From Gloeomargarita sp. SKYB120 (GTDB lineage: Bacteria; Cyanobacteriota; Cyanobacteriia; Gloeomargaritales; Gloeomargaritaceae): a DNA stretch of 44,736 nucleotides. The stretch spans positions 1 through 44,736 of the forward strand of contig JANXAM010000014.1 in NCBI GenBank assembly GCA_025062155.1, written 5' to 3'. Shown in pieces: positions 11,840 through 19,500 of the stretch. Within the stretch, counting starts at the first letter, position 1, and each line of letters starts with the position of its first letter. Both the position numbers and the translations under genes were made by a program. The notes below the pieces were generated by a model. That model made no database searches. It had not been told where the DNA came from and saw nothing but the letters and a program-made list of their open reading frames with translations.

Positions 11840-12939
11840 TCCAAACCCATAGCCAGCTTCTTCAGGTAGCCGATTGGTGCACCCAGGTGCAAAGGCAGCC
11901 CCCCGCCTTGATTTGCGTGCTGGGATTTACGGAAACCGCTTTGCGCCCAGGGATTTCCGCTGCTGGGGCTACCCCCTGGTCGCGACGGTTTACAGCCGCC
12001 GCCGATGCAGAGTTTTTAATCCATGGCCCCTGTTCCCAACCGGTGTATCCCCTACCGCCCTTGACGGCTGGGGTTTCGCCGGTGTACATCACGCGCGCCC
12101 TGGTACAGGCCCTGGACCTACCGGTGCGTCTGGTCAACGCGGGGTTGCCAGTGCCGCTGTCTGTTCCGGCTATGTCCCTGGGTCCGGTGCTTGCCCGCTG
12201 CGTCAGTACGGGAAACGCCATGGACCGGGCTGCTGTGGATTTACTCTGGCGACAGGGATGGGAGCTGGGAAAACAGCTATTGCAGTCACTTCCGCGGCCC
12301 TACTACGTCATCGGGGAATGTGTGGTGGGAGGAACAACGACGGCCCTAGCGGTATTGACGGGGTTGGGGTGGCCAGCCCAGGGACGGGTCAGTAGCAGCC
12401 ATCCCAAGTGCAATCACGCCCAGAAATGGCACCTGGTGCAAACGGGTTTGCACCATTGCCGTGGCCAGTTGGGCGATCCCTGGTCAGTGGTGGCCGCCCT
12501 GGGTGACCCCATGCAGGTGGTGGTGGCGGCCATGACGCTGGCGATGCACCAGGATACTCCGATTCTGTTGGCGGGGGGAACGCAAATGCTGGCGGTGTGG
12601 GCCTTGATCCAGGCCATCGCCAACCACGAAGCTTTGCCCTGGCAACCCGAACGAGTCCTAGTCGGCACGACCAGTTGGGTGGTTCAAGACCCCAGCGCCC
12701 AGGTCGTTGCCTTGGCGCAGGCGCTGCAAGCACCCTTAGCAACGGCTAACTTGAATTTCCAGGCCTCCAGCTATCCGGCACTGCGGGCCTATGAACAGGG
12801 CTTTGTCAAAGAGGGGGTCGCCGCCGGAGGATGCGCAATCGCAGCCCACCTGTATCGTGGCTGGGGGAACGCCCAAGTGCTGGCTGCTGTGGAAACCCTG
12901 CTCAAGCAGTCGGCAACGCTAGCTTCACCAGACGGCTGA
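11836..12939 (+). CDS. CobT-family nicotinate-nucleotide phosphoribosyltransferase-like protein (UPF0284)
   Basis: The 367-residue protein matches in layout the family related to CobT, the enzyme that makes alpha-ribazole phosphate for the lower ligand of cobamides. Visible features are an N-terminal LICVLGFTETALRPGISAAG, a glycine-rich stretch ECVVGGTTTALAVLTGLGW (about residues 157-175) and a later LLAGGTQMLAVWAL (about 238-251). Canonical CobT carries a catalytic glutamate near the C-terminus; I cannot place it with certainty here, and the UPF0284 branch is not well characterised. Coupled to the upstream DUF2232 gene by a four-base overlap. Its end overlaps the convergent ddl gene by 38 bases. 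Confidence 0.7.
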   Translation: MIQTHSQLLQVADWCTQVQRQPPALICVLGFTETALRPGISAAGATPWSRRFTAAADAEFLIHGPCSQPVYPLPPLTAGVSPVYITRALVQALDLPVRLVNAGLPVPLSVPAMSLGPVLARCVSTGNAMDRAAVDLLWRQGWELGKQLLQSLPRPYYVIGECVVGGTTTALAVLTGLGWPAQGRVSSSHPKCNHAQKWHLVQTGLHHCRGQLGDPWSVVAALGDPMQVVVAAMTLAMHQDTPILLAGGTQMLAVWALIQAIANHEALPWQPERVLVGTTSWVVQDPSAQVVALAQALQAPLATANLNFQASSYPALRAYEQGFVKEGVAAGGCAIAAHLYRGWGNAQVLAAVETLLKQSATLASPDG

Positions 12940-13945
12940 CCAGTTCCGGGTAGGGAATCCCGCTGAGTTCCCAGAGCTTGGGGTACATGCTGATCGAGGT
13001 AAAACCGGGGATGGTGTTGATCTCGTTGACAATCCAGCGGCCCTCGGGGGTCAAAAACCAATCCACCCGCGCCAGGCCTCGCCCCTCGAGCACCTGAAAA
13101 ACCCGCAGGGACAGGCGCTGGACTTCAGCCACCTGGTCGGGCGTGAGATCCGCTGGCGCTTTCAGCAACGCGCCCTGGGCGTCCAGGTATTTGGCGGCGT
13201 AGGAATAGAACTCGTGCTGGGGGATGATTTCGCCAGGAACCGACGCCTGGGGCGGCGACCCATCCAAAATGGCGCATTCGATTTCCCGTCCCACAATGGC
13301 CTGCTCCACCAGCGCTTTGGCGTCGTACCGCCAGGCCAGGGCCAAGGCCGGACCCAATTCATCAGCAGTATGGACTTTGGTGATCCCCACCGACGACCCC
13401 ATGTTGGCCGGTTTCACAAACAGGGGCAACCCCAACTGGGCGACCAACGCTTGCGGGTCGACCGTCTCCCCGCGCCGGTAACAGCGATGGGGGGCCACCG
13501 CCAAACCCGCCTGGGTCAACAGCCGTTTCATCACCTCCTTGTCCATGCCCAGCGCCGAGCCGAGCACACCCGCACCGACAAACGGTAAACCCGCCAGGGT
13601 GAGCAACCCCTGCACCGTGCCATCTTCACCGCAGGGGCCGTGCAGCACCGGAAACACCACGTCCAAGGGCAACAGTTCCCACTGGTGCTGTTGACACACT
13701 GCTAGGCCTTGACCGGGTAGCACGCCCACCGGTGCGAGACCCTGGTCAAAGGTGGGCAACCGCTGGGGGTCCGCCTGCTGGAGCCAGGCCGGGTCGGCCA
13801 ACCACCAGTGCCCCCGCCGTGTGATGCCGATGGGAATTGCCGTGTAATGGGCAGACGCCAACGCCGCCAGGACATTGCGCGCTGATTGCACGGAAATTTC
13901 GTGCTCTGCTGACTGGCCCCCAAACAGCACCCCAACCCGGATCAT
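12902..13945 (-). CDS. ddl: D-alanine--D-alanine ligase
   Basis: An ATP-grasp ligase of 347 residues that joins two D-alanines for peptidoglycan precursor synthesis in the cytoplasm. The N-terminal motif VGVLFGGQSAEHEISVQSA is diagnostic. Further on are VFPVLHGPCGEDGTVQGLL (around 95-113), the ATP-grasp loop FVKPANMGSSVGITKV (around 175-190), and near the end GLARVDWFL with IVNEINTIPGFTSISMYPKL, which carries the Mg-binding E and N. Length is normal. ATG at 13945 overlaps the stop codon of the upstream NYN-domain gene by four bases, so the two are probably coupled. Confidence 0.95.
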   Translation of the reverse strand: MIRVGVLFGGQSAEHEISVQSARNVLAALASAHYTAIPIGITRRGHWWLADPAWLQQADPQRLPTFDQGLAPVGVLPGQGLAVCQQHQWELLPLDVVFPVLHGPCGEDGTVQGLLTLAGLPFVGAGVLGSALGMDKEVMKRLLTQAGLAVAPHRCYRRGETVDPQALVAQLGLPLFVKPANMGSSVGITKVHTADELGPALALAWRYDAKALVEQAIVGREIECAILDGSPPQASVPGEIIPQHEFYSYAAKYLDAQGALLKAPADLTPDQVAEVQRLSLRVFQVLEGRGLARVDWFLTPEGRWIVNEINTIPGFTSISMYPKLWELSGIPYPELVSRLVKLALPTA

Positions 13946-14511
13946 TCCGCCAGCACCGAACTCCGGGTCAAGGGCACCTCCGCGCGCGCAGGGCTGGGGT
14001 CCAGCTTTTCGATATAGGGGCGGATGTCGTTCAGGTCAATATAGCAGTCGGCGGCGTTGCGCAACTCCCGCGCGATCATCCCCTCAGTAGAGACCACAAC
14101 GATATGGGTGTTTTTAGAACGTAGCAGTTCCACCGCCCGTTCAAAGTCGCCGTCGCCGCTAAACAGTACCACTCGGTTGTACTGCTCCACCGTGTTGAAC
14201 ATATCAATCACAATTTCAATATCTAGGTTGGCCTTTTGTAGGTGCCGGTTGGACTGTTCGTCGTAGAATTCCTTGAGCAGTTTTGTGCGCACAGTGTAGC
14301 CCAAGTTAATCAACGCATCCCGAAAGCTTCGCTGGTCGTTGGGGTCCTTGATCCCAGTGTACCAAAAGGCATTCACCAAATGGACATGGGGTTCGCGGGT
14401 AAAGTAGTCCAGCACACGTTTGGGGTCAAAAAACCAACCGTTTTTCTGCTGGGCATAAAACATATTATTCCCATCAATGAAGATGGACAGATACACATGG
14501 GGATAAGTCAT
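13942..14511 (-). CDS. NYN-domain (LabA/DUF88-type) putative RNase
   Basis: A PIN-like NYN domain fills most of this protein of about 189 residues. LSIFIDGNNMFYA gives the first metal-binding Asp, NLDIEIVIDMFN the second acidic cluster, and VVLFSGDGDFERAVELL the third. This is the pattern of LabA-like proteins, which in Synechococcus act in circadian output; many NYN proteins are RNases. I start at ATG 14511; the open frame extends to a TTG at 14550 that would add 13 residues. Its stop overlaps the ddl start codon. Upstream on the same strand lies the CHAT pseudogene, ending 44 bases away. Confidence 0.75.
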   Translation of the reverse strand: MTYPHVYLSIFIDGNNMFYAQQKNGWFFDPKRVLDYFTREPHVHLVNAFWYTGIKDPNDQRSFRDALINLGYTVRTKLLKEFYDEQSNRHLQKANLDIEIVIDMFNTVEQYNRVVLFSGDGDFERAVELLRSKNTHIVVVSTEGMIARELRNAADCYIDLNDIRPYIEKLDPSPARAEVPLTRSSVLAE

Positions 14512-14554: not shown

Positions 14555-15763
14555 TCACCAGGGATTTCCTACCAGGGTAAAAGCTGCCCAGTTGTGGGGA
14601 TGCGAAAAGTACTGTTCGCCCCCGGACGAGCTAGGTAACGGGAGTCCCCTTTGTTGGCCTTGCCGCCGCCACTCGCCGTCTCGCAGGGTGATTTGCTGTC
14701 GGAGTAAAGCCACCTGCGCCCCTTGCAGTGCGGTGGCCATCAAGGCCAGGGTGCTCTCATCACCTACGGACCAGAGACTGGCCAGCACCGATTTGATGTC
14801 GGCCTTGGCCGCCACTCCCGCAAATCCCATTTCTGCCCCTTTGTCCTCTACCGCCGTTCGGCACGCGTTGAGGACCAGCAAATCCATGCCCTCCCAAGGC
14901 AATTGGGTCATCTCCGACAAGCCTAGACGACGCTCCCAGAACTGGATGTGGGAATCATGGATTGCGCTGGGGCGAAAATCGGTATGGGTGGCAAGATGGA
15001 CAACGTTGTATCGACGTTGGCGCTGTTGGGTCCGCAGTTGGTCAATTGTAAAGGCCGCTCCCGGCCATTAAGTGGTGATGGTCGCCGGTTCAACGGGCAC
15101 GGCTGGTAGCGGGGGATGCTCGAAAAATTCCGACGCCCCTATTGCCAGGACGCGCAAATTCGGCAGGCGGGTGCGGTCATGATTGGTCAAGCTGTAGGCC
15201 GGCATACGCCCCACGGCGTATTTTTCAGTCAAGTCAGTCAAGAACTGTTGCCCGTCGTGCAGAGCAGCAAAGGGCACCGTGCGCAGTCCCGGCCTAGCGC
15301 AAAAAATGAGCGCCTGGATATGCTCTGCCTGCAAGGCCGCCTCCAAGGGAACAATGAGCCACTGGTGTAAAGGGCTTGCGCTAGCGGCAGGTAACGCTCG
15401 AGTTGGTGGGGGTATGGCCTGTAAAAACTGATCCGCCGTCGGTTGCAAAACCTCAGGGACCGCGTCGGTCACCCGTCTGACAACCAGGCCCCCGCTCGGC
15501 AGCATCAGCAGGAGTTCTAGGTCCGTTGCGCGCGGCACTACGTACAGCACAGCCACTCGTTGCAAATCCTGGCCCACCTGCTGTTGGGTCAGCACGGGAA
15601 CGGTCCATTCCATCCGCAGGTGGCATAATCGTCTTTACCAAAGAGCCTCGATTGGGTTGACGGGGTCAAGTCCCAGCGTGACCTGAACGGGCGCAAGCTG
15701 GGGCAAAGCCAGATGGCCTGTCAAACTCAGAACGAATACAACCAAAGCCTGCTGCCGTTGCAT
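14555..15763 (-). pseudogene. CHAT-domain (caspase-like) protein gene with two in-frame TAA stop codons
   Basis: One reading frame runs from ATG 15763 to TAG near 14555 (403 codons) with TAA at 15637-15635 and at 15070-15068 and no frameshift. The first segment, MQRQQALVVFVLSLTGHLAL, looks like a signal peptide. The second (15613-15071) holds LELLLMLPSGG and PLHQWLIVPLEAALQ, the start of a CHAT domain. The third (15067-14555) holds the His of VVHLATHTDF and the Cys of LLVLNACRTA, the expected catalytic dyad, and ends F-T-L-V-G-N-P-W. TPR repeats usual in front of cyanobacterial CHAT domains are missing, so an internal deletion is also likely. Other genes here use TAA as a true stop, so I call this decayed rather than recoded. 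Confidence 0.7.
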
Positions 15764-15983: not shown

Positions 15984-16526
15984 TTACGCAGACCGACGCT
16001 GAGGCGATGGCGCTTGGTTTAATTCCAGGAGTCCGGGCGGCAACACAAGTTCCAGTCGTCCCTCCGCCAGATTCACCACCGGCACCAGTTCCGGCACAAA
16101 GGGCACCCAATGCACTTGGCCGGTCGGCGTGGTAATTTCTAACAAATCGTTACCGGCGGGAATCACCGCCGTGACCCGCCCCAACATCGCACCGGCATGC
16201 CAGGCGGTGAGACCAATTAAGTCGGGTACGTAGAATTCATCCGGCTCCAGATGAGGACGGTCTGCCTCCGACACCCACAGCGTCGCGCCCCGAAGCTGTA
16301 GAGCTTGTTCAGGGGTTTGAATTTCCTGAAATTGGACAATGTACAGGCGTTTGCCCGGTACAGGACGAGAACGCACCAGCGTCAAGGGTTGGGGTTGCGG
16401 CTGCTGCGGTAGGGAATACCAACGCACCCCCGGCTGGGTAAACCGCTCGGGAAAGTCGGTAAGGGACAAGACTTTGACCTCCCCGCGTAGGGCATGGGGC
16501 GCTAGGATTCGACCGATTTCGCGCAT
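15984..16526 (-). CDS. rimM: 16S rRNA-processing protein RimM
   Basis: RimM helps mature the 3' (head) domain of the 30S ribosomal subunit and binds ribosomal protein S19. This protein of 180 residues starts [19 protein letters not shown], the typical beginning of the RimM barrel. The C-terminal PRC-barrel part carries [14 protein letters not shown] and [20 protein letters not shown]. The frame is open to 16625, but ATG 16526 fits the family; it lies inside the last eight codons of the hybrid kinase gene, so the genes overlap by 25 bases. An 11-bp direct repeat, taattccagga, occurs at 15972-15982 and 16020-16030 around the C-terminal codons, and a 15-bp palindrome covers the stop codon. Confidence 0.9.
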
Positions 16527-19500
16527 GGGCCGTGCAGGTAGGTCTGCCACCGCTGCAGGACTTGCCGCAACTCCTCCTTGTGGACGGGCTTGCTCAGGTA
16601 GTCGTCCATCCCGGCGGCCAGGCATTTCTCCCGGTCCTCCTTCATGGCGTTGGCGGTCAAGGCCACCACAATCGGGCGCTGGGGCAACCGCCCCTCCCGG
16701 TGCAATTCGTGCAGGCGGCGCGTCGCAGCAAACCCGTCCAGCACCGGCATTTGACAGTCCATCAGCACCAGGTCGTAGGGGAAACGCAACGCCATTTCCA
16801 GGGCCTCCTGACCATTGGCCGCCACGTCGGCTTTGTAGCCTAGGCTTTCCAGTTGTTTGAGGGCCACCTTCTGATTCACAGGATTGTCCTCCGCTAGGAG
16901 AATGCGCAGGGTACTAACAGGCACAGTGGAAGCGGGGCTGGGCATCGCCGTTGTTGCCGGCGTCAGGGTGCCCTCCAGCACATTCATAATCGTATCCAGC
17001 AAACGGGAGGCCTTGACGGGTTTGACCAGATGGGCGGCAAACCCAATCGCTTGTGCCTGTTGCGCATGCTCCTGCAGGGGACTGGAAGTGAGCATGATCA
17101 GGGGTGTCTGGGCCAGTTGGGCGTCGGCTTTGACCTGCCGCCCTAGCGTTAACCCGTCCACCTCAGGCATGTTCATGTCCACCAGCACCACCGCGTAGGA
17201 CCGCTGCCGCATTTTTGCCAGTGCTTCGGCCGCCGAAGCTGCTTCTTCGACTTCCAATCCCCAGCGGCTCGCGTGGTAGCGCACCACCTTGCGGTTGATG
17301 GGATGGTCGTCCACCACCAGCAGCGCCTTGCCCTCCAGCGGTTGGGTCGAAAGCGCCGGAGCTTCCGCTGTCGGTGCCGCTACGGCGGGCAAGGGCACGG
17401 TGAAGAAAAAGCGCGACCCCTGTCCAGGGGTGCTCTCTAGCCCGATTTCACCCCCCATCAAGGTCACTAGTTGCTTGCAGATGGCCAGGCCCAACCCCGT
17501 GCCGCCGAATTTGCGGGTGGTGGAGACATCCGCCTGGGTAAAGGGACGAAACAGACGGCTTTGCACCTCCGGTGGGATGCCAATCCCTGTGTCGGTGACG
17601 CTAAACAGCAGCAAGGGCGGGTGTTCCCCTGGTTGCACCCGGATCACCACTTCGCCGCGTTCGGTGAATTTGATGGCGTTGCTCACTAGGTTCATCAACA
17701 CCTGGCGTAGGCGGGTGGCGTCACCCCGCACCCAGGAGGGCACCTGTGGGTCTACCAGCGCGGCGATCTCTAGCCCCTTGACGTGGGCCTGGGGCGCCAG
17801 CAGGTCCACCACCTCCTCCACCACCGTCAACACCTCAAAGTCGAGCGCCTCCAGTTCCACCTGGCCCGCCTCGAGCTTGGACAGGTCGAGAATTTCGTTG
17901 ATGAGATTCAACAGAGTGTCGCCGCTGACCCGAATGGTATTGACAAAGTCGCGCTGCTCGGGGGTCAAGGGGGTCTCTAGCAGCAGACCGGTCATCCCCA
18001 GCACGGCGTTCATCGGGGTGCGAATCTCGTGGCTCATGTTGGCCAAAAAGGCGCTTTTGACCCGCGACGACTCCTCAGCGGCCCGCCGCGCCTGCTCCAG
18101 CTCCTGCAGCAAATGGGCTTGGGTCAGGGCTACCCCCACTTGGTCCGCCAACTGGGTGAGCAAGTCCTGTTCAAAGGCATTCCAGATGCGGGGTTTGGCG
18201 TACTGGTGACAGACCAGCATCCCCCACAGCTCTGCCTTACGCATCAGGGGCACCACCAGTTGGGCCTGGATCCCCAGCGCCTGCAGTCGCCCTAGCTGGG
18301 TGGTGAGTTCATCGGTCACCAGGAGTTGCCCTTGCCGCAGCCAGGCCAGCTCGTCCGCTATGCTTTGATACCACTGGTCCGTCCAGTCGTCGCTAAGGGT
18401 ACAGTCGCCGCAACAGGCCTGGGCCACCACCGCTTGCTGGTCGAGCGCGTAGATAAATGTGCGGTCGGCCTGGATGATCTTTTGCACCTCGTCCACGGTG
18501 GTTTGCAGGATCACCGGCAAGTCTAAGCTTTGGCGGATTTTCAGGGTGATGTCGTTAAAAATTTGCAACCGGCGATTCTGGCGCGCCAGCTCGGCTTCCG
18601 CCCGTTTGCGGTCGGTCACATCCCGGAAAATCCCCCGCGTGGCGACCGGACAACCCCGCTCGTTATAGGAACAACTGGTGCTGCCCTCAAGCAGGCGGGT
18701 TTCCCCATCCCGCGTCCGCACCCGCAACTCCACAAAGGGGAGCGTCCCCGTCGCCAGCAACTGCTGGAATTTCTCGCGGCAGGCCTCGCGGGCGTCGGGA
18801 TGGAGGACGTCCCAAATGGTTAAACCGACAATCTCCTCATCGCTGTAGCCCAGAGTCTGTTTCCAGGCCCGATTCACGTACAGGAACCGCCCCTGCATAT
18901 CCACGCTTTGGATCAGGTCGTAGGCGTTTTCAAACAAATCCCGGTAGCGGGCTTCGCTGGCGGCCAGGGCTTGGCGCGCAGCCTGTTCCTCGGTGATGTC
19001 AATCCCAGCGGCGATGACGTACTCGGTCTCCCGCTGGTGGTCGGTCAGCAGGGTGGCAGTCCAGCGGATCAAGCGCTTGTCGCCAGTGCGGGTGCGCCAG
19101 TGGTTTTCGTAGGCGGTCAAGGGCTGACCCTGCAGCAGTTGGGCAAAGGCAGCTCGCACACTCTCCTGTTCCTCCGGTGGCACCAGCAGTTCCCAGACCG
19201 GTTGTCGGTTGACGTCGGCCAGGGTGTAGCCGCTGAGTTCTTCGCAAAACCGGTTCCAGCGTACCACTCGCCCGTCGTCATCCAGCGCCAGGATCAAGGC
19301 GGGGGTGGTTTGGAAGATGGCCTCCGTGAGGTGGGTCTCCTGCTGGGCAGCCTGCTGGGCCTGCTGACGCGCTTGGATTTGCCGCGCCACAAACACCGCT
19401 GTTGCCCACAGGATTGCAAAATTCAACACCAGCCCGCCGCTGAACAGGTGCTGGGCTTGCTGGTTGACGGCCGCTAACCGGTCTAGCCGTTGTTGCAGCA

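Follow-up and report, generated by a model that had tools for sequence, protein, structure and literature searches.

The CHAT locus and its neighbours

The window, that is, the whole 44,736-nucleotide stretch of contig JANXAM010000014.1 of Gloeomargarita sp. SKYB120 that was analysed, belongs to a 2.48-Mb assembly of 91 contigs (genome G000). The genes and features of the locus are all located on the minus strand and are given in the direction of transcription:

15984 to 16535, minus strand: rimM, upstream of the CHAT copy; start not settled, the mechanical ORF extending to 16625 (ORF list, domain match)
14555 to 15763, minus strand: very probable CHAT-domain pseudogene, 403 codons in one frame with two internal TAA (frame translation, PF12770 match, intact orthologues)
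15617 to 15637, minus strand: slipped stretch 1, net -3 nt relative to the orthologues (frame scores, shuffles)
15635 to 15637, minus strand: first TAA, inside a stretch off the ancestral frame (frame scores 5-6 vs 17-20)
15366 to 15412, minus strand: slipped stretch 2, about 15 codons off the ancestral frame between a -5 and a +2 indel, stop-free (alignment, frame scores)
15234 to 15242, minus strand: 9-nt insertion relative to all four genus orthologues (alignment)
15068 to 15070, minus strand: second TAA, with deletions of 3 and 15 nt next to it (alignment)
14984 to 14986, minus strand: presumed catalytic His codon, ATH motif (aligned with orthologues)
14861 to 14863, minus strand: presumed catalytic Cys codon, NACRTA motif (aligned with orthologues)
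14734 to 14735, minus strand: approximate site of a 39-nt deletion by which a conserved TEFYRQ... segment was lost; deletion absent from sister SKYG116 (alignment)
13942 to 14510, minus strand: NYN-domain gene, downstream of the CHAT copy; likely ATG start at 14510, the mechanical ORF beginning at TTG 14550 (ORF list, domain match)
12902 to 13945, minus strand: D-Ala-D-Ala ligase gene (ddl), after the NYN gene (ORF list, domain match)

Positions 15763-14555 can be read in one frame of 403 codons, the last of which is TGA; two TAA codons interrupt it, at 15637-15635 and 15070-15068. Translated with X at the stops, this frame matches the PF12770 profile at E 7.1e-42 and 144.2 bits, well above the curated cut-off of 24. 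Among the segments delimited by the stops, segment 2 alone (E 9.2e-11, 42.1 bits) and segment 3 alone (E 2.9e-29, 102.9 bits) match PF12770, and segment 1 (42 aa) gave no match in the domain profile search. At its N-terminus, segment 1 aligns to MKRRHALALFGLGLT... in the orthologues. Full-length orthologues match the window copy at E of about 1e-140, which places the CHAT homology far above chance. The His of VVHLATH (14986-14984) and the Cys of LNACRTA (14863-14861), which we take to be the catalytic dyad of a CHAT protein, are both present in the 403-codon frame and align with their counterparts in the orthologues. In these respects the earlier note, which had described a CHAT gene with two TAA codons and its His/Cys portion in one frame, was borne out. 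Because of the two TAA codons, the locus is not an uninterrupted gene for one protein with both residues. Beyond the second TAA, the earliest common start codon is TTG 14920, which lies 3' of the His codon, and no ORF starting with ATG, GTG or TTG 3' of that stop contains both His and Cys without readthrough.

Neither an intact orthologue nor the two ORFs of the locus matched a curated NCBIfam name, and a search of PDB sequences with an intact orthologue gave no match at E 0.01. The listed start of the NYN gene is TTG 14550, but the conserved one looks like ATG 14510 (MTYPHVYLSIFIDGNNMF). Elsewhere, the same genome holds three long open CHAT frames and two more short C-terminal CHAT scraps, L005:1393-1638 (G000:C1:29430-29630) and L006:1501-1701 (G000:C4:24474-24674). 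One of these two scraps has an inner TAG, and its 81-aa ORF matches PF12770 at E 2.5e-5.

Orthologues and sister loci

Seven genomes (G000-G006) made up the genus sample, with Gloeomargarita sp. SKYG116 (G006) as sister genome, and the other genus of the family was represented by G007. At the CHAT locus, the gene is intact in four of the seven, broken in one (the window), reduced to a remnant in one and gone from one. The open full-length orthologues, of 439 codons plus stop, are those of G001, G003, G004 and G005. Each lies directly upstream of an NYN gene, with rimM just upstream in G003, G004 and G005 and elsewhere in G001. G007, too, has an open CHAT copy directly upstream of NYN. Intact orthologues at the same place, as expected among relatives of a pseudogene, are present in these five genomes. 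Identity of the window copy to the genus orthologues is 57-59% by tblastn and 63-65% in the genome search.

The nearest relatives have gone further. In SKYG116 both gene ends only are left; the core is missing and the start codon is replaced. No CHAT match was obtained between rimM and NYN in G002, where these two genes are almost joined; a few bases at the join look by eye like those that end the orthologues. A rooted protein tree groups G000, G006 and G002 with support 98 and G000 and G006 with support 92, although its base is weak (support 26; one branch has a length of 10). An unrooted DNA tree splits the three from the other four genomes at 100 and gives no clear order among the three (54). 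The genomes of this CHAT-losing clade measure 2.2-2.5 Mb, those of G001, G003 and G004 3.0-3.2 Mb, and loss of the CHAT gene may be part of a wider genome shrinkage in G000, G002 and G006.

The neighbourhood was also surveyed from the side of the NYN gene, whose closest named relatives among the best 80 of 550 loci are those of Gloeomargarita sp. SKYG116 and Gloeomargaritales cyanobacterium VI4D9. A CHAT match was found in the flank of four of these 80 loci (L026, L027, L028 and L037), with 10 of the 80 not re-found by the NYN query and some flanks short. All four belong to Gloeomargaritaceae, L027 being a contig of genus member G005. Among the best 80 of 550 NYN loci, the CHAT-NYN neighbour pair thus seems to be confined to this family. 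The CHAT match beside NYN in L026 is a remnant.

Lesions and substitution pattern of the window copy

Alignment with the four genus orthologues revealed eleven gaps in the window copy, which is shorter by a net 111 nt. There are nine deletions (21, 3, 24, 5, 6, 3, 15, 39 and 6 nt) and two insertions (2 and 9 nt), and nine of the eleven have lengths divisible by three. The gaps of 21, 24 and the 3'-most 6 nt are common to SKYG116 and the window copy; the 39-nt gap is not. In slipped stretch 2 the next frame reads PHQLERYLPLAQALY, which is orthologue-like and scores 28 as opposed to 15 in the 403-codon frame, a value reached by four of 2000 shuffles. In slipped stretch 1 the next frame reads KDDYA, where the orthologues have KNQYA and the sister KEDYG; it scores 17 (against the orthologue of G003) and 20 (against the sister) as opposed to 5-6, and 19 and one of 2000 shuffles, respectively, reached these scores. 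The aligner displays stretch 1 as a net 3-nt gap only, and the slip is deduced from frame scores and a reading of the alignment. Given that the first TAA lies within this stretch, it probably did not arise by a point nonsense change; most likely the frame slip, compensated a few codons on, created it as a by-product. The lesions are hence of several kinds: stops, indels and slips. The earlier description of a frame broken only by TAA is refuted by the -5 and +2 indels, the two slipped stretches and the eleven gaps, and with it falls the premise of pure nonsense decay without frameshifts.

Differences were counted at sites where the four orthologues do not vary, for the CHAT copy in its in-frame parts only. 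At codon positions 1, 2 and 3 the CHAT copy differs at 61/311, 42/346 and 68/172 sites (0.196, 0.121 and 0.395). Corresponding values for genes of the same genome are 14/135, 11/143 and 30/71 (0.104, 0.077 and 0.423) for rimM, 14/174, 5/186 and 29/113 (0.080, 0.027 and 0.257) for NYN, 25/277, 17/304 and 48/140 (0.090, 0.056 and 0.343) for ddl, and 119/879, 91/972 and 178/480 (0.135, 0.094 and 0.371) for HK. The CHAT copy shows an excess of change at positions 1 and 2 that is seen in none of these four flanking genes. Based on JC distances, with the functional pattern taken from intact orthologues as the ratio of position 1, or 2, to position 3, this excess corresponds to roughly 0.08 neutral substitutions per site as judged from position 2 and 0.13 as judged from position 1; for position 2 of the four control genes the equally rough estimate is about 0.02 or less. 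When neutral change of 0.08-0.13 per site was simulated on intact orthologues (400 runs per setting), it produced on average 3.1-5.2 stops and no more than two in 8-39% of runs. Two TAA codons are therefore unremarkable for this amount of neutral change.

Conserved residues have likewise been lost. An alignment with 22 homologues has 89 columns that at least 21 of them conserve; here the window copy has nine changes and five gaps, and the four genus orthologues have 0-1 changes and no gap. When each of the 22 homologues was left out in turn, 0-8 conserved columns were changed and none was gapped, the value of 8 belonging to L023.

Relative to the neighbouring genes, constraint appears relaxed in part. 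Third positions of the CHAT copy change two to three times as fast as positions 1 and 2, which implies that most of its divergence accrued under coding constraint. Calculated without the slipped stretches, the ratio of change at positions 1 and 2 to that at position 3 is 0.77 in the first part (0.19 and 0.31 in two orthologues) and 0.40 in the last part (0.17 and 0.16). Between the stops it is 0.29, compared with 0.20 and 0.43 in two intact orthologues, such that the middle part is not clearly relaxed. Constraint may act on this part alone.

Over the flanking genes, the third-position distance between G000 and SKYG116 is 0.656. The neutral change is only part of what the lineage's own branch has accumulated, so that, by this crude sequence-based reckoning, the gene would have been inactivated once SKYG116 had split off, or shortly before. 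The suggestion of a recent inactivation made in the earlier note is thus supported by the intact orthologues and by an excess at positions 1 and 2 that amounts to no more than some 0.08-0.13 neutral substitutions per site.

Origin and fate of the CHAT copy

Taken together, the CHAT copy of the window is very probably a pseudogene that was inactivated recently, within a clade now losing the gene. The ancestral gene, upstream of NYN in Gloeomargaritaceae, would have encoded a 439-residue stand-alone CHAT protein. Its inactivation in the window lineage would be fairly recent and followed by erosion through substitutions, small indels and deletions; the second stop lies at a deletion. Cancelling slips together with mostly frame-keeping deletions would account for the long open appearance of the frame. 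The gaps of 21, 24 and 6 nt common with the sister may predate the loss of function. Speaking against a pseudogene are the fastest third positions, the nine of eleven gaps that keep the frame, the preserved dyad residues, the ratio of the middle part and the homologue L023, in which as many as eight conserved residues are changed. The third positions, the in-frame gaps, the dyad and the state of the middle part fit a gene that was under constraint until recently. From these comparisons we infer both the timing and the lack of a functional product at the CHAT locus, although a short-lived product may still be made from the middle part.

A related proposal is that G000, G006 and G002 are actively shedding the gene, each with lesions of its own, because its presumed caspase-like activity is costly or useless, and that the fragment starting at ATG 15613 is perhaps made as a non-catalytic remnant. 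We regard this specific scenario as very improbable; selection and drift may alike explain the gene loss here.

It is very doubtful that either the stretch between the two stops (181 aa from ATG 15613) or the stretch 3' of them has become a small gene of its own. An ATG-started ORF of 181 aa does exist, and its ratio of 0.29 falls within the orthologue range. However, this ORF includes slipped stretch 2, lacks the His and the Cys, covers positions 3-113 of the 289 in the Pfam CHAT profile, less than half of the domain, and has no counterpart kept in the two sisters, and the last part has no ATG, GTG or TTG ahead of the His codon. Separate genes were rejected on the grounds of the incomplete domain and the lacking starts. 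Just as little probability is assigned to the idea that assembly or sequencing errors created the stops in a healthy gene. The assembly is indeed fragmented (91 contigs), but errors would have to explain many independent lesions, lost conserved residues and the excess at positions 1 and 2, and the eroded locus in the separately assembled sister genomes is hard to attribute to base-calling.

Programmed stop readthrough yielding a switchable full-length CHAT protease, the least probable reading and one we consider practically negligible, could draw on a frame that runs on past both stops and on the preservation of both presumed catalytic residues, but it was rejected because sense codons, which the earlier note had itself named beforehand as refuting, occupy both TAA places in all four intact genus orthologues (and the first in the sister), because the product would be partly out of the ancestral frame and devoid of conserved residues and the 39-nt segment, because TAA is a normal terminator nearby (8 of the 28 long ORFs chosen in the window), and because the gene is eroded or absent in the two nearest relatives, SKYG116 and G002. 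The combination of a stop conserved in relatives and a constrained downstream frame, as would characterize readthrough, was not found.

Beyond annotation, the pseudogene reading matters little: the annotation should call the locus a pseudogene and, without evidence, list no protein of 181 or 121 aa from it. It illustrates that compensated frame slips can disguise a decayed gene as one with nonsense changes only when it is read without its orthologues. Moreover, the natural series of a whole gene, a broken gene, two ends only and a scar shows a stand-alone CHAT gene disappearing from one Gloeomargarita branch. In the portions available of the literature on Gloeomargarita and pseudogenes, nothing concerning the CHAT locus was found.

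The window copy resembles the stand-alone CHAT proteins (PF12770) of Gloeomargaritaceae in its adjacency to NYN and in its full-length alignment. It differs from the genus orthologues, which are open over 439 codons, by its two TAA codons and two slipped stretches. According to its published description, HetF is a cyanobacterial CHAT protein with CHAT, TM and TPR domains, the CHAT domain residing in amino acids 1-555 (PMC8406250). HetF and the orthologues studied here both contain CHAT, which in the orthologues is the only domain (residues 146-437 of 439). An ordinary bacterial pseudogene under lineage-specific loss offers a close parallel, sharing the existence of intact orthologues, a mixture of stops and indels, relaxed substitutions and further eroded sisters. 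Apart from the gaps of the window copy, most of which keep the frame, nothing essential separates it from such a pseudogene.
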